A DNA stretch of 64,000 nucleotides, taken from NCBI RefSeq assembly GCF_000215955.2, contig NZ_AFNV02000021.1, positions 1 to 64,000 of the forward strand, read 5' to 3'. Below, in pieces: positions 3,556-23,757 of the stretch (positions are counted from its first letter, which is position 1; every line of letters begins with the position of its first letter). The stretch is from Salinisphaera shabanensis E1L3A. GTDB lineage: Bacteria > Pseudomonadota > Gammaproteobacteria > Nevskiales > Salinisphaeraceae. The translations under genes and the position numbers were made by a program. The notes beneath the pieces were generated by a model that saw only the letters and a program-made list of their open reading frames with translations, did not search any database and was not told the origin of the DNA.

Positions 3556-4200
3556 TCACGCCGCCGGCGGAAGCAGACGGGTGCCGGTCACGGCCTGCAC
3601 ATCCTCGAAGCTGTTGTCGCCAAACAACTCGACGACCCGCGGCCCGTTTTCGGTGATTTCTATAACGGCGAGGTCGGTATAGATACGGCTGACCACACCG
3701 GTGCCGGTGAGCGGGTAGGTACAGGTATCGAGAATCTTGGGTTCACCATCCTTCGTGGTATGGCGCATGAGCACGTATACGGTTTTCGCGCCCACCGACA
3801 GATCCATCGCGCCGCCTACGGCCGGCGGATATTTTTCGTTGTCGGTCGCCCAGTTGGCGAGGTTGCCGTCGGCCGACACCTGAAAGCCACCAAGCACGGC
3901 GATATCCAGATGGCCGCCGCGCATCATCGCGAACGAGTCGGCGGTATCGAAATAACAGCCGCCCTTGATGAGCGTCACGTATTGCTTGGCCGCATTGATC
4001 AGATCCGGATCTTCAGTGCCGGGTTCGGGCGTCGGGCCGACGCCAAGGATGCCGTTTTCGCTGTGATAGATTACCTCGCGGCCTTCGGGCACGTAGTTGG
4101 CCACCATGACCGGCATGCCGATGCCGAGGTTCACATAGCTGCCATCCGGGATGTCCTGCGCGAGGCGTTCTGCCATTTGTGCGGGTTCGAGACGGGTCAT
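3556..4200 (-). CDS. scoB: 3-oxoacid CoA-transferase subunit B
   Basis: Beta subunit of a two-subunit CoA-transferase that moves CoA between succinyl-CoA (or a similar donor) and a 3-oxoacid such as acetoacetate or 3-oxoadipate. The 214-aa protein has the conserved start NLGIGMPVMVANYV and the SENGILGVGP motif whose Glu forms the glutamyl-CoA thioester. The GGAMDLSVGAK and late LTGTGVVSRIYTDLAVIE motifs are also typical. The reading frame is open further upstream, but the ATG at 4200 overlaps the stop of subunit A by four bases (ATGA), which fixes the start and indicates translational coupling. Scot, Ato and Pca variants cannot be separated from sequence alone. Confidence 0.9.
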   Translation of the reverse strand: MTRLEPAQMAERLAQDIPDGSYVNLGIGMPVMVANYVPEGREVIYHSENGILGVGPTPEPGTEDPDLINAAKQYVTLIKGGCYFDTADSFAMMRGGHLDIAVLGGFQVSADGNLANWATDNEKYPPAVGGAMDLSVGAKTVYVLMRHTTKDGEPKILDTCTYPLTGTGVVSRIYTDLAVIEITENGPRVVELFGDNSFEDVQAVTGTRLLPPAA

Positions 4201-4868
4201 ACGATGCCCTCCTGTGCGACAACGCGATCGACGAAGATGCCGGGCGTGGCAACGCTTTCCGGATCGAGTTCGCCAAGTTCCACGATATGTTCGACTTCGG
4301 CGACGGTCAGATCGGCTGCCATTGCCATGACCGGATTGAAATTGCGACCGGCCGTGTTGTAAGCGAGGTTGCCCCACTTATCGGCTTTGTGGGCCTTGAT
4401 TAAAGCCACGTCTGCCTTGAGCGGCGGTTCGAGCACGTAGCCGACGCCGTCGATCTCGCGTGTTTCCTTGCCATCGGCGAGCTTGGTGCCGTAACCGGTT
4501 GGCGTGAAGAAACCACCCAGACCGGCACCGGCCGCGCGCATGCGTTCGGCGAAGGTGCCCTGGGGCATCAGCTCGAGTTCGATAGCGCCTTCCTCGTAGA
4601 GTTTTTCGAACCAGACCGAACCCTGCGAGCGTGGATAGGTGCACACGACCTTGCGTACCAGCCGATCCCGCAACAGCGTAGCAATACCGATTTCATGCGA
4701 ACCGGCATTATTGGAAATGATGGTGAGATCGTCGGCGCCGTGCAGGCGAAGTGCTTCGATAAGTTCGAATGGAATGCCCGAGCTGCCGAAACCGCCGATC
4801 ATCACGGCATCGCCGCTTTTAATGCCGGCGATCGCTTCGCCCAGAGACGCGACTCGCTTGTCTATCAT
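4197..4868 (-). CDS. scoA: 3-oxoacid CoA-transferase subunit A
   Basis: Alpha subunit of the same CoA-transferase (223 aa). The N-terminus has the glycine-rich MIGGFGSSGIP motif followed by the NNAG segment, and GGFFTPTGYGT and TAGRNFNPVMAMAAD lie further on; all are hallmarks of the family. The ATG at 4868 is preferred because it begins the conserved domain; upstream in-frame codons read into the end of the transporter gene. Only 13 bases separate it from the TRAP permease stop, so transporter and enzyme are surely cotranscribed. This suggests that the imported substrate is a short organic acid activated by CoA transfer, which is an inference. Confidence 0.9.
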   Translation of the reverse strand: MIDKRVASLGEAIAGIKSGDAVMIGGFGSSGIPFELIEALRLHGADDLTIISNNAGSHEIGIATLLRDRLVRKVVCTYPRSQGSVWFEKLYEEGAIELELMPQGTFAERMRAAGAGLGGFFTPTGYGTKLADGKETREIDGVGYVLEPPLKADVALIKAHKADKWGNLAYNTAGRNFNPVMAMAADLTVAEVEHIVELGELDPESVATPGIFVDRVVAQEGIV

Positions 4869-4881
4869 GATCTCATACCTT

Positions 4882-6885
4882 TTAAGAAGAAGCTTTCGCC
4901 TGCTGCGCGGCCTGTTCTGCCTGTTTGGCACGGGCAAGGCGCTGGGCGTCCTTCGAGCCCAGCCGACCGCCGAGCGCGGCATCCGCGACATAGACCGAGA
5001 CGATGATCGCGACGCCGACCACGTCCGAAATACGCTCCGGATAGATCAGACCCGCGCCGGCAGCAAGCACGATCAGGCGCATGATCGGGTTGATCGCGCC
5101 GACCCGGTACAGATAACCCTCGAGCGCGGCGGCAACCAGCCAGATCGCGGCAACCGCGGTTACGGTCGATAGCAGGATATGGGCGAGATCGCCCTGCAGA
5201 ATCAATGCCGGATTGGTCACGAACAAGAACGGCAACACGAACAGAATGCTGCCCAGGCGCATGGCATAGACACCGGTACGACCTGCGTTGGAACCCGCCA
5301 CGCCGGATGCGGTGATTGCGGCCAGCGCTACCGGCGGCGTGATGTAGGACAGCATGCCCCAGTAGAGGATGAACAGATGGCTCGCCAGCGGGTTCAGGCC
5401 TGCCTCTACCAGCGCTGGCGCCAATAGAATCGACAGGAAGATGTAACAGGCGCTGACCGTCATGCCCATGCCGAGTACGAAGCTGGTGATCGCACCCGCG
5501 CCGAGCATCAGCGGAATGCTGCCGTCGGCATAGAGCAGCAGTTCACGCGAGAACGCGCCGGCCACACCGGTATAGGACAACCCGCCAACCACCAGGCCGA
5601 TGCCGGCCAGAATCGAAACCAGACTGGCGACGCTGCTGGTCAGGTTGAGCACCAGATACTGCAACCGCGACCAGTTCAGCCGATGGCTGCGTTTGAATAC
5701 CGCGATGACCAGCAGAATGATGGTGGCGTAATAGGGCGCATAGGCGTCCAGACGCATCACCAGCAGCATGTAGATAAGCATGGCCAGGCTGAATAGATAC
5801 GGCCAGCCTTGCTTGAGGGTATCGATGACGCGCGGAATCTCGGATTCCGGCAGGCCGATCAGGCCGCGTCGTGCCGCATAGGCATCGACCTGGAACAATA
5901 GCGCAAGATAGAACAACAAAGCCGGCAGAAAGGCTGCCACCATGACTTCGGCGTACGGCACGTTTAGAAACGAGGCCATGATGAAGGCCACCGCACCCAT
6001 GACTGGCGGCATGAGCGTACCGCCGGTCGAGGCACAGGCCTCGATCGCACCCGCATAGTGGGGCGGATAGCCCGACTTCTTCATGGTGGGGATCGTGATC
6101 GGGCCGGTCGTGAGAATATTCGAGATCACGCTACCCGACAGGCTGCCCATGATGCCGCTGGATACGACAGCGACCTTGGCGGGGCCGCCACGGCTGCGGC
6201 CCATCAGGGCCATGGCGAAATCCATGAAGAAGTCGCCGCCGCCGGTCACGGTAAGAGCCGCGCCGAAGACCACGAAGCCAATAATCAGATTGGCCACCAC
6301 CTGCATCGGAATACCGATGACCGATTCCACGCCAAGCACGTGGGCGCGCAGCGTTTCGCCGAAGCCGTACTGCGTGCCCCAGAGAAAGCCGGGCATATGA
6401 TCCGCGAATAGCGGATAGCAACCGAACAGCAGGGCGACGACGACAAGGATCAGGCCGCCACAACGGCGTGTGCCTTCCAGAATGAGTAGCAGCATCACAC
6501 CCGAGGCTACGGTTGCCTCGATCGGTGCGCTGAAATCCCAGCCTTGCTGGATGATTTCGAGTCCGTGATAGCCCAGATAGATCGCGGGCACCAGGGCCAC
6601 TGCGGCGAGTACCCAGTCGTAGAACGGTACGCCGTGTTTTGCGCCCGACCAGGCGGGGTAGTAGAGAAAGGTCGCCGCGAGGAACAGGCCGATCAGGTAA
6701 TAGAGAAAGGCGTTGCCCAGCGGCTGAAAGCCCAACAGGCCGAGGGTAAAGGTCTGGTTGATGGTCAGCAGCAGACCGAGCGTGCCCAGCGCCATGACGG
6801 TCCAGTAGGACACACCGCGCAGGCGGCTGGCTTCCTTGTCTGTTTCCAGGCTGATCTCGGTGGCCGAAGGCGTGTTTGTGGCCAT
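4882..6885 (-). CDS. TRAP transporter fused permease (4TM-12TM)
   Basis: Membrane component of a TAXI-type TRAP carrier, which uses an ion gradient and a periplasmic receptor to import organic acids. The 667-aa protein is long enough to hold the small (DctQ-like) and large (DctM-like) subunits in one chain, as usual for the TAXI class. The TRAP signature region is visible as GSVISNILTTGPITIPTMKKSGYPPHYAGAI split over residues about 240-275, with many hydrophobic helices before and after. The ATG at 6885 follows a GAGG ribosome site; an in-frame ATG at 6906 is less likely. It lies between the receptor gene and the CoA-transferase genes in one operon. Confidence 0.93.
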   Translation of the reverse strand: MATNTPSATEISLETDKEASRLRGVSYWTVMALGTLGLLLTINQTFTLGLLGFQPLGNAFLYYLIGLFLAATFLYYPAWSGAKHGVPFYDWVLAAVALVPAIYLGYHGLEIIQQGWDFSAPIEATVASGVMLLLILEGTRRCGGLILVVVALLFGCYPLFADHMPGFLWGTQYGFGETLRAHVLGVESVIGIPMQVVANLIIGFVVFGAALTVTGGGDFFMDFAMALMGRSRGGPAKVAVVSSGIMGSLSGSVISNILTTGPITIPTMKKSGYPPHYAGAIEACASTGGTLMPPVMGAVAFIMASFLNVPYAEVMVAAFLPALLFYLALLFQVDAYAARRGLIGLPESEIPRVIDTLKQGWPYLFSLAMLIYMLLVMRLDAYAPYYATIILLVIAVFKRSHRLNWSRLQYLVLNLTSSVASLVSILAGIGLVVGGLSYTGVAGAFSRELLLYADGSIPLMLGAGAITSFVLGMGMTVSACYIFLSILLAPALVEAGLNPLASHLFILYWGMLSYITPPVALAAITASGVAGSNAGRTGVYAMRLGSILFVLPFLFVTNPALILQGDLAHILLSTVTAVAAIWLVAAALEGYLYRVGAINPIMRLIVLAAGAGLIYPERISDVVGVAIIVSVYVADAALGGRLGSKDAQRLARAKQAEQAAQQAKASS

Positions 6886-14965: not shown

Positions 14966-14979
14966 TTGATTTCCGTCAA
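14966..14979 (+). promoter_or_regulatory. FNR/DNR-type operator upstream of nnrS
   Basis: The 14-base site TTGATTTCCGTCAA matches the FNR/ANR/DNR consensus TTGAT-N4-ATCAA in nine of ten half-site positions. If it activates from -41.5, transcription would begin near 15014, with CATAGT at about 15002 as -10 and 27 bases of leader before the ATG at 15041. It overlaps a TTG that would extend the nnrS frame, which argues against that start. Confidence 0.8.
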
Positions 14980-15040
14980 TGCCCACGCGGGGCGCGAGCG
15001 GCATAGTTCACGCTATCTATTGGGTGTGGAGCAGGGCGTG

Positions 15041-16264
15041 ATGCCGGGTTCGGTATTCGAGGCCATGCGGTGCTTGATACGCGCGCCGCATCGGCTGTTT
15101 TTCATGGGCGGGTTGTGCGCGCTTGTCGTAGGCATGCTGTGGTGGGCGCCCGTTCTGATCATGCGCTGGGCCGGCGTTGCAAGCGCTTATCCGGTGCCGG
15201 CGGTCTGGTTGCATGCCTGGCTGATGACACTGGGCGTTTTTCCTTTTTTCGTTTTTGGTTTCTTGCTGACCGCCCTGCCTCGCTGGGTAGGCGCGCCCCC
15301 GGTGAGCGCGCTGTTCTACCGAAGCATGGCCGGTGTACTGTATGCCGGTTATACGCTGACCGTCGTCGGTACACTCGCCGGGCGAGATTGCCTAATCGCA
15401 GGGCTGGCCCTTACTGGCGTCGCCTGGGCATTGGGCCTGGTCGCACTCATCCGTTGTCTTCTTCTTGCGCGCGCCGCCTCTCTGTTGCACGCACGTTGGT
15501 CGATTATCGTTGCCGCGGTGGGATGCATCGGTGTACTCGTCGGGGTGGGCGCCATATCGGACGATCAATGGGCGCTCTTCGCGGCGATGCCGTCGCTCGC
15601 GCTCTGGGGCTTCGTGGGGCCGATCGTGTTCGTGGTGGCGCATCGCATGCTGCCGTTCTTTTCCGAACCGATGATTGCGAACTACCGACGCTACCAGCCG
15701 GTCTGGAGCCCCCCGCTAGTGGTGGTTCTCTCACTGGGCCACGGCGTGCTCGCATTCAATGGACACGACGACTGGCTTTTCATGGCCGACTTGCCGCTGG
15801 CATTCATTACCGCTTGGCATGCAATTCGCTGGCGGGGCTGGGCCGCATCGCACGTACCCTTGCTCTGGTCGCTGCATATATCTTTTGCCTGGCTGCCGGT
15901 CGCCGCATTGTTGTCGGCGACCCAGAGTCTGGCGCTGTTCGCCGGGTATGGTGCAGTACTGGGCCTGGCGCCCGCCCATGCGTTGGGTATGGGGCTCGCC
16001 ACGAGCATGGTGTTTGCCATGGTCACACGCGTGAGCCTTGGCCATTCGGGCCGCCAGCTGGAAATGGATAACCTCAGCGTACTCTGTTTCTTGATTCTTC
16101 AGCTGGCCGTGGTGGCACGCCTTATAGCCGCCGTCACCGCCGGCAATGCGCGCTGGTTGTTCCTGTTCGTCGCCATAGGCGCATGGTTCGAAGCGATATT
16201 GCCTTGGGCGATTCGTTATGGCCGTATCTATTGCCGCCCGCGGGCCGACGGCCAGCCCGGCTGA
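15041..16264 (+). CDS. nnrS: NnrS family heme-copper membrane protein
   Basis: Polytopic inner-membrane protein of the NnrS family, which protects against nitrosative stress and is usually part of NO-responsive regulons. The 407-aa product has about twelve hydrophobic helices, several with conserved His or aromatic residues (APHRLFFMGG near the start, VAHRMLPFFSEPM, ALGMGLATSMVFAMVTRVSLGHSGR near the end). These motifs are characteristic. The open frame begins at a TTG inside the FNR-type box, so I chose the ATG at 15041, which leaves the box in the promoter; ATG 15065 is an alternative. It is followed 12 bases later by the sirB2-like gene, probably in one operon. Confidence 0.85.
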   Translation: MPGSVFEAMRCLIRAPHRLFFMGGLCALVVGMLWWAPVLIMRWAGVASAYPVPAVWLHAWLMTLGVFPFFVFGFLLTALPRWVGAPPVSALFYRSMAGVLYAGYTLTVVGTLAGRDCLIAGLALTGVAWALGLVALIRCLLLARAASLLHARWSIIVAAVGCIGVLVGVGAISDDQWALFAAMPSLALWGFVGPIVFVVAHRMLPFFSEPMIANYRRYQPVWSPPLVVVLSLGHGVLAFNGHDDWLFMADLPLAFITAWHAIRWRGWAASHVPLLWSLHISFAWLPVAALLSATQSLALFAGYGAVLGLAPAHALGMGLATSMVFAMVTRVSLGHSGRQLEMDNLSVLCFLILQLAVVARLIAAVTAGNARWLFLFVAIGAWFEAILPWAIRYGRIYCRPRADGQPG

Positions 16265-16276
16265 GCGAGTAGAAGC

Positions 16277-16672
16277 ATGTCCGTGGCGACTTTGTACGTT
16301 GTATTGAAAGCGCTGCATGTGGGCAGCGTCGCCGTGACGCTGGGATTGTTCGTGCTGCGCGCGGGCTGGATGGTGTTTGCGCCGGCGCGGCTCGAACGAC
16401 GCTGGGTCCGTGTGCTTCCGCACTGTATCGATACGGTGCTGCTGCTCAGCGCAATGGGACTGGTTTTGCTGCTCGGCCCGTATCCCGGCATTCAGCCGTG
16501 GTTGACGGCCAAGGTCGTAGCGCTGCTTGTCTATATCGTACTCGGTACGATCGGGCTCAAACGCGGGCCGACAAAAACGATACGTATCGCCGCCTGTATC
16601 GCTGCGCTTCTGGTCTTCGCCTATATCGTGAGTGTGGCACTTAGCCATAACCCGTACGGCCTGTTCGCCTGA
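16277..16672 (+). CDS. SirB2-like integral membrane protein
   Basis: A 131-aa protein with four predicted membrane helices. The pattern, starting YVVLKALHVGSVAVTLGLFVLRAGWM, continuing with HCIDTVLLLSAMGLVL and ending SHNPYGLFA, matches the SirB2 family, whose biochemical function is unknown. The gene lies 12 bases after nnrS with the same orientation, so it should share the FNR-type promoter. Similar small membrane genes often travel with denitrification or NO-defence genes, so a helper role for NnrS is possible but unproven. Confidence 0.8.
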   Translation: MSVATLYVVLKALHVGSVAVTLGLFVLRAGWMVFAPARLERRWVRVLPHCIDTVLLLSAMGLVLLLGPYPGIQPWLTAKVVALLVYIVLGTIGLKRGPTKTIRIAACIAALLVFAYIVSVALSHNPYGLFA

Positions 16673-17089
16673 GCTAAATAGCACTTCCTATCCCGTGGAC
16701 GGAGCGTTGTGCGCGCCGTTCTTACGACTTGCACTCGCCGCGCCGGATGGCGGATATCGAATCGTCGGGGATATCTTCGGGGCGCGAACGAGCTACGGCC
16801 CGACCCAGGGTTAGCTTTGCCGAAGATCGGGGTAAACAAAAGCCTGCTAGCCCGGTACACCGACCACGTTGCTGAACTCGTCAGTACAGCACGCTGATGA
16901 GAGGCGCGTAAGTTTGCGAAATAGAGTCGAATAAAATGCGGCGGTCCCGAGGCATTTTTAAAATAATAAAAACTTTTGATTTAGGTCAATGAGAGCGCCT
17001 GCTCCGACGAATTAATTTGGCGCGGCTCGGCACGCATTATTGGCTATGCCGGGCACGATAAAAGCCATTTATTCATCCCGGGGCAGGTC
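16673..17089 (+). other. intergenic leader of the nor cluster
   Basis: This 417-base region separates sirB2 from the nor cluster. Bases 16950-17020 are clearly AT-rich and hold the FNR-type box described separately. With activation from -41.5 the transcript would start near 17024, where ATTAAT at 17011-17016 could be the -10 element, leaving about 65 bases of leader before the 43-codon gene. In 16680-16910 only short open frames without ribosome sites are present and I see no function there. Confidence 0.6.
16976..16989 (+). promoter_or_regulatory. FNR/DNR-type operator upstream of the nor cluster
   Basis: TTGATTTAGGTCAA matches the FNR/DNR consensus in nine of ten half-site positions and lies in an AT-rich stretch, 107 bases before the first small gene and 280 before norC. 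The predicted outcome is induction of nor transcription under low oxygen and/or NO. Confidence 0.8.
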
Positions 17090-17221
17090 ATGCGTCAATC
17101 AACCCTTCCGTGGTTTCTTCTTATCAAGTCGCTGGGTCTGGCGATGGCCGCAGCCTTGCTCGTGACCATCGCGTATGCCGGTGTGGCAGTCATCCGCTAT
17201 TGGAATCTCATCGGTGTTTGA
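17090..17221 (+). CDS. 43-aa single-span membrane protein heading the nor cluster
   Basis: A short gene not previously named here: ATG at 17090, TGA at 17219, 43 codons. The product is basic at the N-terminus (MRQSTLPWF..K) and then has one hydrophobic span, SLGLAMAAALLVTIAYAGVAV, ending IRYWNLIGV. A GGCAGG sequence sits four bases upstream as a modest ribosome site. It lies between the FNR-type box and norC (42 bases before it), so it should be the first cistron of the NO reductase transcript. It is not NorE or NorF by length. I do not recognise a family; a small subunit or assembly factor of NOR is a hypothesis only. Confidence 0.6.
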   Translation: MRQSTLPWFLLIKSLGLAMAAALLVTIAYAGVAVIRYWNLIGV

Positions 17222-17263: not shown

Positions 17264-18091
17264 ATGACCAAAAGACAGAGTCGGCTGTTTTTCCTCGTCA
17301 GCACGGCGTGCTTCTCGCTCGTCTTCCTGGCTCTTACGCTGCATAGCCATACCCGATTCGGCGAGCTCACGAACGCCGACAAGATGGATGCGCAAGTGAT
17401 TGCCGGCAAGGATGTGTGGCACAGCAATAACTGTATTAACTGTCATACGCTGCTCGGCGAGGGCGCTTACTATGCGCCAGATTTGACAAAAATAACGCAA
17501 CAGCGTGGCGAAGCCTATTTGGCTGCATTTCTTTCAAATCCGTCGAAGTTCTACTCCGAGCAGCGGCACCGCCGGATTATGCCTAATCCCGAGCTCAGTG
17601 AAACGGAAATCGACGATGTGATCGCGTTTCTCGACTGGGTTTCGCAGATCGATAATCAGGGGTGGCCGCCGCGCCCGATTCTTGTGTCCGGCGCGACCTT
17701 TCCGGGTACCAACACTCAGAAGGCGTCCGGCGTTGCTTCGTCAGAGCAAGCGCCGCCCGCGGCCGCGGCTGCGGGAGAGCAGCTGTTCAGTGACGCCGCG
17801 ACCGGGTGCAGCGGCTGCCATTCGATAGCGCCGGGCGTGGATCTGGCCGGGCCGTCACTGGCCGGTGTCGGTGAGCGAGCACGTCGGACCGTTACCGATG
17901 ATGGCTATACCGGCAGCGCCGACACGGCGGCGGGCTATCTGCGCGAATCGATTGTTGCGCCGAGTGCGCATCTTGTGGGCGGCGATCGGTTTTCAGCGAA
18001 CGGCACTTCGTTCATGCCGACCAATTACGGCACGGACCTCGATGCCGATCAGATCGACGCGTTGGTCGATTACCTCAGCACTCTGAAGTAG
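17264..18091 (+). CDS. norC: nitric oxide reductase cytochrome c subunit with extra cytochrome c domain
   Basis: Membrane-anchored electron-entry subunit of the cNOR complex on the periplasmic side. One N-terminal anchor (about residues 9-26) is followed by a NorC domain with heme motif C57-I-N-C-H61 and likely Met106 ligand (RRIMPNP). Usual NorC is about 150 residues. Here a Pro/Ala-rich linker (about 150-170) leads to a second c-type domain with C182-S-G-C-H186 and Met251 (SFMPTNYG), giving 275 aa and two hemes. The added domain could replace or extend the soluble donor. It is followed by norB after 10 bases. The NorC identification is firm; the role of the second heme is inference. Confidence 0.92.
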   Translation: MTKRQSRLFFLVSTACFSLVFLALTLHSHTRFGELTNADKMDAQVIAGKDVWHSNNCINCHTLLGEGAYYAPDLTKITQQRGEAYLAAFLSNPSKFYSEQRHRRIMPNPELSETEIDDVIAFLDWVSQIDNQGWPPRPILVSGATFPGTNTQKASGVASSEQAPPAAAAAGEQLFSDAATGCSGCHSIAPGVDLAGPSLAGVGERARRTVTDDGYTGSADTAAGYLRESIVAPSAHLVGGDRFSANGTSFMPTNYGTDLDADQIDALVDYLSTLK

Positions 18092-18101
18092 GAGAGATTT
18101 C

Positions 18102-19472
18102 ATGCGTTTTCGTACTCAACGCGTGGCGTACTGGTATTTCGCCGTCGCGCTCAGCCTGTTCGGGTTGCAGCTGGTCATGGGGCTGCTCATGGCAGCCAAG
18201 TATCTCGGGCCGGATCCGCTTATCGATCTGCTGCCGTTCGATGTCGCCAAAGCGATGCACACGAATCTTCTTATCGTGTGGGTATTGGCTGGTTTCATGG
18301 GCGGTACGTACTACGTGGTCGCCGAAGAGTCACGTACCGAGCTCTATAGCGAACGCCTGGCCTATATACAGCTCGTGGCCTGGACCCTCATGGGGGCGAC
18401 GGCGATTGTGGGATACATGCTCGGCTGGACCGCGGGTATCAAGATGCTCGAACAGCCGTATCCACTGAAGCTCGTGATCGTCGCGGTCATGCTGCTGTTC
18501 TTCTTCAATATCTTCATGACGATCCGCCAGGCCGGACGTTGGACACTGACCGAGGGCGTGCTGATCGCCGGTCTCGTATTGGCTGCCTTGCTCTATTTGC
18601 CGGCGCTGCTGCCGTACGACAACTACACGGTCGAAACCTTCTATCGCTGGTGGACAATCCACCTGTGGGTCGAAGGCGTATGGGAAATGATTCAAGGTTC
18701 GATGCTCGCGTTCCTGCTCGTACGCCTATCCGGTGCGGATCGTGAGGTCATGGAGAAATGGCTGTACGTGATCGTGGGTCTGGTGTTCATGGCCGGTATT
18801 CTCGGCACCGCGCACCATTACTACTGGACGGGCGTGCCCGGTTACTGGCTACCGATTGGCGGTTTCTTCAGCGCGCTCGAACCGGTTGCACTCGTCGGTA
18901 TGGCGATTTATGCCTATGCCGCGATTCGCCGTTCCGGGGCCGCGCATCCCAATACGCTGGCTGTGCACTGGACGATTGGCAGTGCTGTGTTCACGCTTTT
19001 CGGCGCCGGTCTGCTGGGCCTGGCGCACACCTGGCCGGCGATCAATAAATGGACACACGGTACGCTGATTACCGCCATGCACGGCCATGCGGCCTTTTAC
19101 GGCGCGTACGCGATGATCGTATTGGCGATGATCAGTTATACCCGCCCATATTTGACAAGCAACCGCCCCGAGCGCGGGCAAAGCCTGGGTTACTGGGCAT
19201 TCTGGCTTCAGGTCGCCGGCATGTTCGGGATGACGCTGTCGTTCGCGACTGCCGGCATCGGGCAAGTCTATCTGGAACGCGTCATGGGCCTGGGATATCT
19301 CGATACCCAGTTGAAGATACAAATCCACTTCGTGATGCTCGTCGCGACAGGCTCGCTGTTCGCCGTCGGGGTCATTCTCTATATCGTGGATTTCTTCCGC
19401 TTCGCGCCGCTTCGCGTCGCTGCGCCTCATGATGAGGGCGCTGCGCCCAGGCACGCGCCGGGCACGGTATGA
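18102..19472 (+). CDS. norB: nitric oxide reductase large subunit
   Basis: Catalytic subunit of the cytochrome bc-type NO reductase, which reduces 2 NO to N2O at a heme b3/FeB centre in the inner membrane. At 456 aa with about twelve hydrophobic helices, it has normal NorB size. The early AMHTNLLIVW (low-spin heme His), WWTIHLWVEGVWE (FeB-region His and the conserved Glu), HHYYWTGVP (FeB histidines) and HGHAAFYGAYAM (heme histidines) motifs are all intact. Its stop overlaps the norQ start by four bases. Expression should follow the FNR-type box at 16976. Confidence 0.95.
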   Translation: MRFRTQRVAYWYFAVALSLFGLQLVMGLLMAAKYLGPDPLIDLLPFDVAKAMHTNLLIVWVLAGFMGGTYYVVAEESRTELYSERLAYIQLVAWTLMGATAIVGYMLGWTAGIKMLEQPYPLKLVIVAVMLLFFFNIFMTIRQAGRWTLTEGVLIAGLVLAALLYLPALLPYDNYTVETFYRWWTIHLWVEGVWEMIQGSMLAFLLVRLSGADREVMEKWLYVIVGLVFMAGILGTAHHYYWTGVPGYWLPIGGFFSALEPVALVGMAIYAYAAIRRSGAAHPNTLAVHWTIGSAVFTLFGAGLLGLAHTWPAINKWTHGTLITAMHGHAAFYGAYAMIVLAMISYTRPYLTSNRPERGQSLGYWAFWLQVAGMFGMTLSFATAGIGQVYLERVMGLGYLDTQLKIQIHFVMLVATGSLFAVGVILYIVDFFRFAPLRVAAPHDEGAAPRHAPGTV

Positions 19473-20272
19473 GTCGGGCTCGGATGGCCGCAGATACGCC
19501 AGCGCCTTACTACGCCGCCTCGGCGGAAGAGATCGCGCTCTTCGAGCATTGTCATGCGCAGGAATTGGCAGTGATGATCAAAGGGCCCACGGGGTGCGGC
19601 AAAACGCGTTTTGTCGAACACATGGCCTGGCGTTTGGATCGTCCACTGATTACGGTCGCTTGCCACGACGATCTGTCGGTAAGCGATCTGGTCGGCCGAT
19701 TTCTAGTGCGGGACGATACGACGGTCTGGCAGGACGGCCCGTTGACCCGCGCCGTGCGCGAAGGCGCGATCTGTTATCTCGATGAGATCGTCGAGGCACG
19801 ACAGGACACGGTCGTGGTCATTCATTCGCTGACCGATCACCGGCGGCTGTTGCCCATCGACAAGACCGGCGAGACATTGACCGCCGCCCCGGGTTTCCAA
19901 CTCGTGGTGTCTTACAACCCCGGCTACCAGCATGCGCTGAAGGATTTCAAACCCAGTACCCGCCAGCGCTTTGTCGCACTCGAATTCGATTTTCCAACGT
20001 TCGAACGAGAAACCGAGATCGTGGCATACGAGGCCGATGTGCCACGCGCGACTGCACACGGACTGGTGGAACTGGCCTGGCGCATGCGCCGGCTTGAGGA
20101 TCGTGGTCTTGCCGAAGTACCGAGTACTCGGCTGCTGGTAGCCACGGCACGATTGATTGCATGCGGCGTCGAGGCGCGCCAGGCATGCCGCGTGGCGCTG
20201 ATCGCGCCCCTGACCGACGACCCCGAGGTCGCGGGTGCGCTTGCGGATCTGGTGGATGTCGCACTTGTATAA
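19469..20272 (+). CDS. norQ: NorQ/CbbQ-type AAA+ ATPase
   Basis: A 267-aa MoxR-class AAA+ ATPase that works with NorD to insert the FeB iron of NO reductase. The Walker A motif GPTGCGKT is at residues 39-46, Walker B is in GAICYLDEIVEA, and the sensor region VVSYNPGYQHALKDFKPSTRQRFVALEF is typical of CbbQ/NorQ. The ATG overlaps the norB stop (ATGA), so the two are translationally coupled. An ATG five codons later is an alternative start. norD follows after 15 bases. Confidence 0.94.
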   Translation: MSRARMAADTPAPYYAASAEEIALFEHCHAQELAVMIKGPTGCGKTRFVEHMAWRLDRPLITVACHDDLSVSDLVGRFLVRDDTTVWQDGPLTRAVREGAICYLDEIVEARQDTVVVIHSLTDHRRLLPIDKTGETLTAAPGFQLVVSYNPGYQHALKDFKPSTRQRFVALEFDFPTFERETEIVAYEADVPRATAHGLVELAWRMRRLEDRGLAEVPSTRLLVATARLIACGVEARQACRVALIAPLTDDPEVAGALADLVDVALV

Positions 20273-20287: not shown

Positions 20288-22267
20288 ATGGCGGAACCTG
20301 AAGGCGTACTTATCGATGCAGCGCGGTGGTTGGTCGACCGCCTGCGACCGGAACGTGCGCCCGTTGAAGTTCCCTGCGTTGAACTGCTCGCAACTCATCG
20401 GCGGCGTCTGGAGCTATTGCTCGAAAGCGTATTCGCCATCGAGTTGCCGATACGCGTAGCCCAGCCGCCAGCGCCGCCCAGGCTCATGGAGCGCGCCGTA
20501 CGCCGGCTGCCGAAAGCGCATATCGATACGCGTGCGTTGCCTGGAACGGATGGGTGCGCTGTCCATCTTCCGTACTGTCTTGGCGGGTACGGCCAGCGCT
20601 CGCAACGCCTGTATCGCGTGATGGCACTGCACCAGGCCGTCAGAGCGGCGCGGTTGGCGCAGTGGACGCCGCCGTGTGCCAGTGCCTTGCAGAAGGATCT
20701 TTTCTGCCTCTATGAAGCCGCCGCCGCGGACGTGGTGTTGTGCACCAGCCTGCCCGGGACGGTGCGCGATCTGGAACTGCTGCATGCCTGTGCCAACGAG
20801 CAACGCCAGGGGCTGCATTATCGCTATGACACGCAACAGCGTATGGAGGCTTTGCGTACGCAGGCTCGCTCACTTCTCACAAAGCATGGGACGCGTTCGA
20901 TGCCGGGCGCATCCGAGTCGTGGGCGCGGGCGCAGGATCACGCCAAACGCCTCGCGACCGAACGGGAGGGGTATCAGCCTTTGCCACGCGATTTCTGGTG
21001 GGGGCGTTTGCTTGCCGCATCGAATATAGCCGGCGCCGTAGGGGCGACCGATGCAAATACGCCAGCGGGCAGCGAACGGGTGGCGACGCTCGAGCGAACG
21101 CCGGAGATACGCACATCGGACGAAGACGAGGACGACACGCAGGTCGGCCCGTGGATGATCCAGACTGACGACCCGCACGAACACGCCGAAGATCCACAAG
21201 GCTTGCGACGGCCTGCGGATAACGACGACGACAGCGAGCCAGAAGCGTTGTCGGAATCGGTGGCCGAACTGCCGCGCGCCAGCCAGGTCACGAGCCCGGA
21301 TCCCGTACGCGAAATTCTTCTGGCCGAGGAATCGACAGCGCCACGTAAAAAGCCCTCGTCGGCGCCGTGCGCCCGCCCCGATGGCAGACCATACCCGGAA
21401 TGGGATTATCGCGTCGGGCGCTACCGTGAAAACGCGGTCACGGTACACAGCGGCGATGTCGAGTTCGGCGATGCGGCCTGGGCACGGGCCCTCATGCGTC
21501 GGCGCCATACGTTGATCAGCGATGTGCGACGCCAGTTCCAGAAATTACGCGCCCAACGACAATGGCGACGGCGCCAGCCCGATGGCGAGACGGTCGATAT
21601 CGATGCGCTGGTTCTAGCGTATGGCGAGCGCAGGGCCGGCACGGTTGCCGATGATCATGTCTATCAACATTCGGTCCCGGCCCGCCGCGATGTCGCGATC
21701 ATGTTGCTCGTCGATATCAGCGGCTCGACCGACGCCTGGGTCGATGCCGACATGCGCATCATCGATGTCGAGAAAGAAGCGCTGCTCGTGGTTTCCGAGG
21801 CGTTACAAGCGCTTGGCGATGCGCATGCCATTTTCGTATTTTCCGGCGAGACGGCATCGCGGGTTTGTGTCGACCGGGTGCGCGGGTTCGACGACCGTGA
21901 AAGCGAGCCGTGTCGACGGCGTATCGCGGCTTTGGCGCCCCAGCGATTCACGCGCACAGGCGCGGCCATACGTCATGCGTCGACGCTGCTCGCCGCGCGT
22001 CCGGAACGCAAACGCCTGCTGCTGGTGATCTCCGACGGCAAGCCCAACGATGCGGACGGTTACGAAGGCCGCTACGGCGTCGAAGATACGCGTCAGGCAG
22101 TCCGCGAGGCACGCGACGACAATATCGAGAGCTTCTGTATCACGGTTGATCGACAAGCCCCGGTCTACATGCCGGCCGTGTTCGGCGCTAACGGCTATAC
22201 CGTACTGCGAAACCCGGCGAACCTCGCCGCTCGGCTCGTGCATGTGTTGCGTCGAATGCTCGAATGA
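20288..22267 (+). CDS. norD: NorD, von Willebrand factor A domain activation protein
   Basis: A 659-aa cytoplasmic partner of NorQ needed for active NO reductase. The N-terminal 260 residues are helical; a strongly acidic, low-complexity linker (about 275-345, rich in Asp/Glu) follows. The C-terminal VWA domain carries the MIDAS motif DISGS at about residue 476 (LLVDISGSTDAW), TGAAIRHAS and VISDGKPND. This order is normal for NorD. The acidic linker fits the halophile impression. It is the last gene of the nor cluster; nirK follows 116 bases later with its own FNR-type box. Confidence 0.93.
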   Translation: MAEPEGVLIDAARWLVDRLRPERAPVEVPCVELLATHRRRLELLLESVFAIELPIRVAQPPAPPRLMERAVRRLPKAHIDTRALPGTDGCAVHLPYCLGGYGQRSQRLYRVMALHQAVRAARLAQWTPPCASALQKDLFCLYEAAAADVVLCTSLPGTVRDLELLHACANEQRQGLHYRYDTQQRMEALRTQARSLLTKHGTRSMPGASESWARAQDHAKRLATEREGYQPLPRDFWWGRLLAASNIAGAVGATDANTPAGSERVATLERTPEIRTSDEDEDDTQVGPWMIQTDDPHEHAEDPQGLRRPADNDDDSEPEALSESVAELPRASQVTSPDPVREILLAEESTAPRKKPSSAPCARPDGRPYPEWDYRVGRYRENAVTVHSGDVEFGDAAWARALMRRRHTLISDVRRQFQKLRAQRQWRRRQPDGETVDIDALVLAYGERRAGTVADDHVYQHSVPARRDVAIMLLVDISGSTDAWVDADMRIIDVEKEALLVVSEALQALGDAHAIFVFSGETASRVCVDRVRGFDDRESEPCRRRIAALAPQRFTRTGAAIRHASTLLAARPERKRLLLVISDGKPNDADGYEGRYGVEDTRQAVREARDDNIESFCITVDRQAPVYMPAVFGANGYTVLRNPANLAARLVHVLRRMLE

Positions 22268-22383: not shown

Positions 22384-23757
22384 ATGAAAATAAGGCGTTG
22401 GGTCAACGCGTTAGGGGTGTTGTTGCTAGGGGCCAGTGTGTCCGTCGCAAGCGCAACACAAACAAATATCGCCGACGGCGTCAGCTTGAAGCCGGATGTC
22501 TCGATCACGTTGAAAACGGGAATCGGCGAAGAGGGTATGTACTTTCAAGGGGTCGGGGGCAAGATCGACGGGCGTATCAACCCTGAGATCAAGGTGCCCG
22601 AAGGCGCGGTTGTTCAGCTGACACTGATCAACGGTGATGGCGCGATGCACGATGTGGCCATTCCTGACCTGCATGTAAAATCCGATGGAGTGGTCGGACG
22701 GGATTCGAGTTCGGTATTCGTCTTCCGTGCCAACGAGGCCGGCCAGTTCGATTACTTCTGCACCATTCCCGGTCATCGGGCGGCCGGCATGGAAGGCACG
22801 CTGGTAATCGGAGAGACCGAAGCCAGCGACTTAACCGGCACACTCGACGATATCAGTCGCGATCCTGCGGATGTGCCCGCGGCGATCGGCGACCGTGATC
22901 CCAAGACGGTTAGTGTGGCAATGAAAACCGTTGAAAAGCAGGCGCGGCTTGCCGACGGGACCAGCTATCGTTACTGGACGTTCGACGGTCAAGTGCCGGG
23001 TCCGCTACTGCGTGTGCGTGAGGGCGATACGGTCGACCTGACGCTTAGCAACGCCGAGGACAGCACGATGATCCACTCGGTGGACTTTCATGCGGTCACG
23101 GGCCCGGGCGGCGGTGCGGCCGTACTTCAAGTACCGCCGGGTTCGGAAAAAAGTCTGTCGTTCAAGGCCATCAAACCCGGACTGTATGTCTACCACTGCG
23201 CCACGCCAATGGTCGCCCACCATATCGCCAACGGCATGTACGGCATGATTCTGGTGGAGCCGGAAGGCGGCCTGCCGCCGGTCGACCACGAGTTCTATGT
23301 GATGCAGGGCGAGATATACACCACGCAGGCCTATGGCCAGCATGGCGAGCAATCGTTCGATGTGCGCAAACTGCTTGATGAAAAACCGGAATACTATGTA
23401 TTCAATGGTTCCGTCGGGGCGCTGACCGACAAGCATCCGCTGACCGCGAAGGTCGGCGAGACGGTACGCATCTACTTCGGTGTCGGCGGGCCGAACGCCA
23501 CATCTTCTTTTCATGTGATTGGCGAGATGTTCGACAAGGCCTACGAATGGGGCGGCACGAGCAGTGCGCCGGCCGAGCATATCCAGACCATCAGCGTGCC
23601 GCCGGGCGGCGCCACGATCGTGGATTTCGAACTCGAAGTGCCCGGCAAGTACGTGCTTGTCGACCATGCGCTTAGCCGTATGGAGCGCGGGCTGGCCGGC
23701 TTCTTGAAAGTCGAAGGTGAAGACGCACCGGAGATCTATAACCCGGGCGGTGGCTAA
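22384..23757 (+). CDS. nirK: copper nitrite reductase with N-terminal cupredoxin domain
   Basis: Periplasmic enzyme reducing nitrite to NO. A signal peptide (cleavage near SVASA) precedes an extra type-1 copper domain with ligands His89, Cys126, His131 and Met136, then the two-domain NirK core. In the core the type-1 set is His231, Cys272, His280 and Met285; type-2 ligands are His236, His271 and His377; and catalytic Asp234 and His351 are present. The compact HCATPMVAHHIANGM spacing is that of class II NirK. N-terminal cupredoxin fusions are known, for example in Hyphomicrobium NirK. At 457 aa it is about one domain longer than ordinary NirK. A GGGAG ribosome site precedes the ATG, and a terminator follows. 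Confidence 0.95.
   Translation: MKIRRWVNALGVLLLGASVSVASATQTNIADGVSLKPDVSITLKTGIGEEGMYFQGVGGKIDGRINPEIKVPEGAVVQLTLINGDGAMHDVAIPDLHVKSDGVVGRDSSSVFVFRANEAGQFDYFCTIPGHRAAGMEGTLVIGETEASDLTGTLDDISRDPADVPAAIGDRDPKTVSVAMKTVEKQARLADGTSYRYWTFDGQVPGPLLRVREGDTVDLTLSNAEDSTMIHSVDFHAVTGPGGGAAVLQVPPGSEKSLSFKAIKPGLYVYHCATPMVAHHIANGMYGMILVEPEGGLPPVDHEFYVMQGEIYTTQAYGQHGEQSFDVRKLLDEKPEYYVFNGSVGALTDKHPLTAKVGETVRIYFGVGGPNATSSFHVIGEMFDKAYEWGGTSSAPAEHIQTISVPPGGATIVDFELEVPGKYVLVDHALSRMERGLAGFLKVEGEDAPEIYNPGGG

Follow-up and report, generated by a model that had tools for sequence, protein, structure and literature searches.

A 43-codon open reading frame (ORF) directly upstream of the NO reductase genes of Salinisphaera shabanensis E1L3A is a real gene under protein-level selection, and it is strictly tied to one clade of cNOR enzymes in which NorC carries two haem c motifs. 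We propose, with a probability of about 0.6, that its product is a translated single-span micro-protein and an obligate third component of this two-haem cNOR clade, most likely a permanent and stabilising part of the complex. The role as a subunit, the physical association and the stabilisation are argued by analogy with known small subunits and from the anatomy of the gene and its product.

The ORF was studied in a window of 64,000 nucleotides, which is the whole stretch of DNA that was analysed. It starts with an ATG at 17090 and ends with a TGA at 17219-17221. The features of the region are:

16976..16989, no strand assigned: FNR/NNR-type box TTGATTTAGGTCAA, 5' of the micro-protein gene
17090..17221, + strand: micro-protein gene, 43 codons and 43 aa, MRQSTLPWFLLIKSLGLAMAAALLVTIAYAGVAVIRYWNLIGV (ORF, conservation, omega, helix prediction, charge bias)
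17264..18091, + strand: norC, two-haem type, 275 aa (Pfam, PDB sequence match, fold match)
18102..19472, + strand: norB, catalytic subunit of cNOR, 456 aa (3O0R_B at E 3e-107, clade-specific residues, tree)
19469..20272, + strand: norQ, MoxR-type AAA+ chaperone (AAA_5 and CbbQ_C)
20288..22267, + strand: norD, VWA-domain chaperone (VWA)
22384..23757, + strand: nirK, copper nitrite reductase, a neighbour (TIGR02376 at E 5e-111, Cupredoxin_1)

An earlier note on this DNA had described a complete small gene of 43 residues with one hydrophobic span, which was confirmed by the ORF call and by a helix predicted for residues 6-41. It had also placed the gene as first cistron between an FNR-type box and norC, and this agrees with the positions of the box and of the norC start. 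On the 5' side lie nnrS (14966-16264), a SirB-family gene (16277-16672) and a non-coding stretch with the box. The SirB-family gene encodes a membrane protein and directly follows nnrS (14966-16672), and the second Salinisphaera locus (L002) carries the same pair upstream. On the 3' side norC, norB, norQ, norD and nirK follow in the same orientation, and by this gene order the ORF is the first cistron past the box. NirK (22384-23757) was seen to have an extra N-terminal cupredoxin region ahead of the nitrite reductase domain. The box has a single mismatch to TTGAT-N4-ATCAA and is located 100 bp 5' of the ORF; in the second Salinisphaera locus (L038) a perfect box, TTGATTCAAATCAA, is found at an equal distance. 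Since an FNR-type box with 0-1 mismatch was detected in only 4 of 57 loci, it was rejected as a clade-wide trait, and regulation varies between hosts.

To describe the neighbouring enzyme, NorB and NorC were compared with solved structures. NorB matched the cNOR chain 3O0R_B, with the HLWVEGxxE and HH metal-site motifs aligned. Residues 1-137 of NorC correspond to a classical NorC, made up of a single N-terminal anchor plus a haem c domain (2-137 match 3O0R_C), and a second cytochrome c domain follows at about 155-275. With two cytochrome c domains and two CxxCH motifs (CINCH at 57-61, CSGCH at 182-186), the protein departs from the single haem c expected of a cNOR. An AlphaFold model of NorC alone was of moderate confidence (pLDDT 71) and matched the fold of 3O0R_C; a weaker match was to the caa3 cytochrome c domain 1W2L. 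In a tree of 86 NorB sequences, obtained by a quick maximum-likelihood search, the 59 from two-haem loci with a micro-protein ORF were separated from the rest by a fully supported branch, and Salinisphaera sp. NP40 was the closest relative of the window's NorB. Many positions are fixed differently in the clade and in the compared set of 27 loci. Lys114 of the window's NorB occupies the position of Glu135 of P. aeruginosa, and Lys is found there in place of the Ca2+ ligand in 59/59 clade members, against Glu in 25 of the 27 compared loci. Glu135 is described as coordinating a Ca2+ that links the two b haems and also joins NorB to NorC, and Glu was reported at this position in 88% and Lys in 9% (PMC4816578). 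The Lys of the clade is probably this 9%. As judged from these alignments and the tree, the enzyme next to the micro-protein is a distinct cNOR clade.

Several observations were made on related loci. Lys at the Glu135 position also occurs in a separate two-haem lineage (G271). One locus (L168, 631-1374 in G938) has a two-haem norC with an apparent frameshift in the second cytochrome c domain, reflecting either recent decay or a sequence error, and an intact micro-protein gene and norB. In automatic annotation (L131, L132 and many plasmid records) the cNOR NorB appears as 'cbb3-type cytochrome c oxidase subunit I', while this NorC is labelled just 'cytochrome c', and these labels hide NO reductases in gene counts.

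A NorC-alignment scan of 84,980 species genomes yielded 58 loci (L038-L095) with the same full-length NorC type, all from Gamma- or Betaproteobacteria. In 58/58 of them a homologous ORF precedes norC and ends with W-x-x-[IV]-x-V-stop just 5' of it. Two loci lie at a contig edge where the ORF start is missing, and 57 complete sequences, including that of the window, were therefore available. These homologues are 36-47 codons long and begin with ATG, GTG or TTG; a Shine-Dalgarno-like stretch is present in 50/57. Their distance to norC is usually 8-24 bp and extends from -4 bp, a 4-bp overlap in one locus (L072), to +75 bp. Within the genus Salinisphaera, this norC was found in 2 of 14 genomes, both of which have the ORF; the two are 60% identical, and their length and stop are alike. 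A codon model of 56 distinct sequences gave an omega of 0.131 and a lnL of -3397.7, compared with -3618.8 at omega=1 (~221 log units better, kappa being close to its optimum), and differences between 14 sister pairs were distributed as 34/19/76 over codon positions 1/2/3. The earlier note had proposed to look for conservation of the frame in relatives and for Ka/Ks-type selection on its codons: the reading frame is kept wherever this NorC type occurs, and the low omega supports constraint at the protein level. In the annotated plasmid records of Eleftheria terrae and Aquabacterium olei the ORF is present in the DNA and is not among the listed genes, in a gene table known to be incomplete. Gene callers overlook this 43-residue ORF, and a search of the open-licence literature, which did not extend to subscription papers, returned no description of the ORF or of the two-haem NorC.

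The micro-protein of the window has a single hydrophobic span at about residues 14-35, and AlphaFold2 predicted one helix from residue 6 to 41 (mean pLDDT 87). With positions numbered backwards from the C-terminus, Trp at -6 (W38) and Val at -1 (V43) are invariant; position -3 is Ile or Val, position -15 (residue 29) is Tyr or Trp, and position -31 is Lys or Arg in 54/57 sequences. The Val is the end of every micro-protein, no member extending beyond it. Small residues occupy -18, -14 and -10, i.e. every four positions, in nearly all members; these positions are predicted to share one helix face of the kind typical for close helix packing, from which we infer the packing itself. The N-terminal flank is more basic than the C-terminal one in 48 of the 57 sequences and the reverse was seen in none, a charge bias that by itself suggests an N-in, C-out topology. 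No convincing family match was obtained for 51 members in Pfam and NCBIfam, and a search of PDB chains with the micro-protein profile gave no match at a cutoff of E 10.

The distribution of the gene follows that of the enzyme. Among 41 Stutzerimonas genomes, 24 encode a two-haem NorC, and the ORF was found in the same 24 and in none of the other 17. In a sample of 218 Pseudomonadaceae, partly overlapping with the former, a strong adjacent match (E <= 3e-12) was present in exactly those 37 genomes that have a two-haem NorC, and credible matches were found in 0 of the 181 lacking it, the sole other match (E 5e-5) lying inside a 371-residue frame. Genomes with both NorC types hold a single copy of the gene, next to the two-haem norC only, and none of 27 loci with a one-haem or divergent NorC has the ORF. 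Credible matches in a 398-genome phylum sample were likewise confined to the vicinity of this norC; a weak match in G659 adjoins unrelated genes and was discounted, as were the remaining weak matches outside nor clusters, which are partial and mostly located within long reading frames. Because the genomes are related these counts are not independent events, and the occurrence in both Gamma- and Betaproteobacteria carries more weight.

The separate two-haem lineage G271 (L011, L167) lacks such an ORF in the 11 kb of sequence examined; in L167 (G271:C44), norC ends at about 3952, norB spans 3949-5304, NorC has about 239 aa, and a NorQ and a NorD-like gene are present. The idea that any two-haem NorC needs the micro-protein was therefore rejected: having a second haem is not enough to call for it, and the association is with this NorB/NorC clade rather than with the second haem as such. 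The suggestion of an unrecognised NOR subunit or assembly factor made in the earlier note holds as the best class of explanation, and the refutation proposed there, by loss or disruption of the frame in relatives, was tried and failed; its scope is narrowed from cNOR in general to the two-haem-NorC clade.

Other explanations for a short ORF at this position were weighed against these data. Frames of 43 codons are common by chance and many were among the listed ORFs, yet a chance ORF between promoter and norC is refuted by the frame conservation in 58/58 loci, the codon-position bias and the likelihood test, and its probability is practically negligible. Size and hydrophobicity alone would also fit a stress-type or type I toxin-like single-span peptide that is there by chance; this is highly improbable given a single-copy gene whose exact link to one enzyme clade holds in both Gamma- and Betaproteobacteria, and which stands in sense orientation within the operon with its own ribosome site. 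It is likewise very unlikely, if slightly less so, that the ORF is a regulatory leader whose translation controls norC initiation by coupling while the peptide has no job of its own. Its location immediately 5' of norC with small gaps, and the overlap in L072, would suit such a leader, but the amino acid sequence and an invariant C-terminal motif are conserved even though the distance to norC varies so widely, and the ORF contains no run of regulatory codons.

The main rival to a subunit is a dedicated assembly factor that would hold NorC or NorB during insertion of haem or FeB and be absent from the mature two-haem cNOR. This would give the same genomic pattern, with identical strict linkage, the gene shares its operon with norQ and norD, and CcoH shows that small proteins of such kind can be assembly factors (PMC7876108). 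NorQ and NorD insert FeB (PMC9976466, PMC13036017), but clusters without the micro-protein (L169, L167) also contain norQ and norD-like genes, so the general route of FeB insertion does not need it. The tight small-residue helix face and the fixed C-terminus suit a stable subunit at least equally, and we consider an assembly factor unlikely, though far more plausible than a leader.

Since the gene stands before norC in every examined genome of this enzyme type, its product is probably a small stabilising accessory subunit. Its N-terminus would be cytoplasmic and its short C-terminus (..YW..I.V-COOH) would lie at the periplasmic face, with the helix face formed by -18, -14 and -10 packing closely on a partner helix of NorC or NorB. 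The micro-protein would remain in the complex and keep the enlarged two-haem NorC stably attached to NorB, much as CcoQ and CcoM do in cbb3 oxidase. Covariation between residues of the micro-protein and those of NorB or NorC was unable to locate a binding site, as the effective number of sequences was about 21 and the top pairs were scattered. A further-reaching proposal is more tentative and somewhat doubtful: the clade may be a structurally distinct, obligate three-subunit NO reductase of micro-protein, two-haem-c NorC and NorB, in which Lys replaces the haem-bridging Ca2+ site and the micro-protein is part of this adaptation.

Most N2O of biological origin comes from NO reductase, and descriptions of cNOR generally give it two subunits. 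If a third gene is universally linked to this clade, whose hosts include Stutzerimonas, Pseudomonas, Nitrosospira, Polaromonas and Massilia, then heterologous expression, structures and annotation of its cNOR have missed a component. Were the micro-protein a stabiliser, biochemistry of the two-haem cNOR may not be feasible without it.

Small subunits are known from related enzymes. CcoQ stabilises the interaction of the two-haem CcoP with the CcoNO core of cbb3 oxidase (PMC8267372), and CcoM, a 36-residue single-span subunit of the Pseudomonas stutzeri cbb3 oxidase, is needed for stability of the complex (PMC8267372, PMC10433244). Like CcoQ (FixQ), the micro-protein is small, single-span and encoded with an enzyme of the haem-copper superfamily. 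Unlike CcoQ, it gave no Pfam FixQ match (E<=1 for the window's ORF, E<=0.1 for 51 members), its gene always lies directly before the two-haem norC and not between ccoO and ccoP, and the W..I.V conserved at its C-terminus lies on what is predicted to be the periplasmic side. With CcoM it shares the size class, the single span and overlapping host genera; it is, however, encoded with norCBQD and not with cco genes, and as no PDB chain was matched there is no detectable relation to the solved CcoM. The cNOR of Thermus thermophilus (norCBH) was described as heterotrimeric, with NorH (PMC7694296, PMC5748679), which like the micro-protein is a further product of a nor operon besides norC and norB. 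Thermus NorH, in contrast, has 98 aa, two hydrophobic stretches and a gene after norB, whereas the micro-protein gene precedes norC, and the micro-protein profile did not match NorH (bit score -1.7). The NorE-like ORF of a classical cluster (L169) is, at 198 aa and strongly hydrophobic, far from the 43 residues found here. By the sequence tests done the micro-protein is a member of none of the CcoQ, CcoM and NorH families, and at most it may work as they do.
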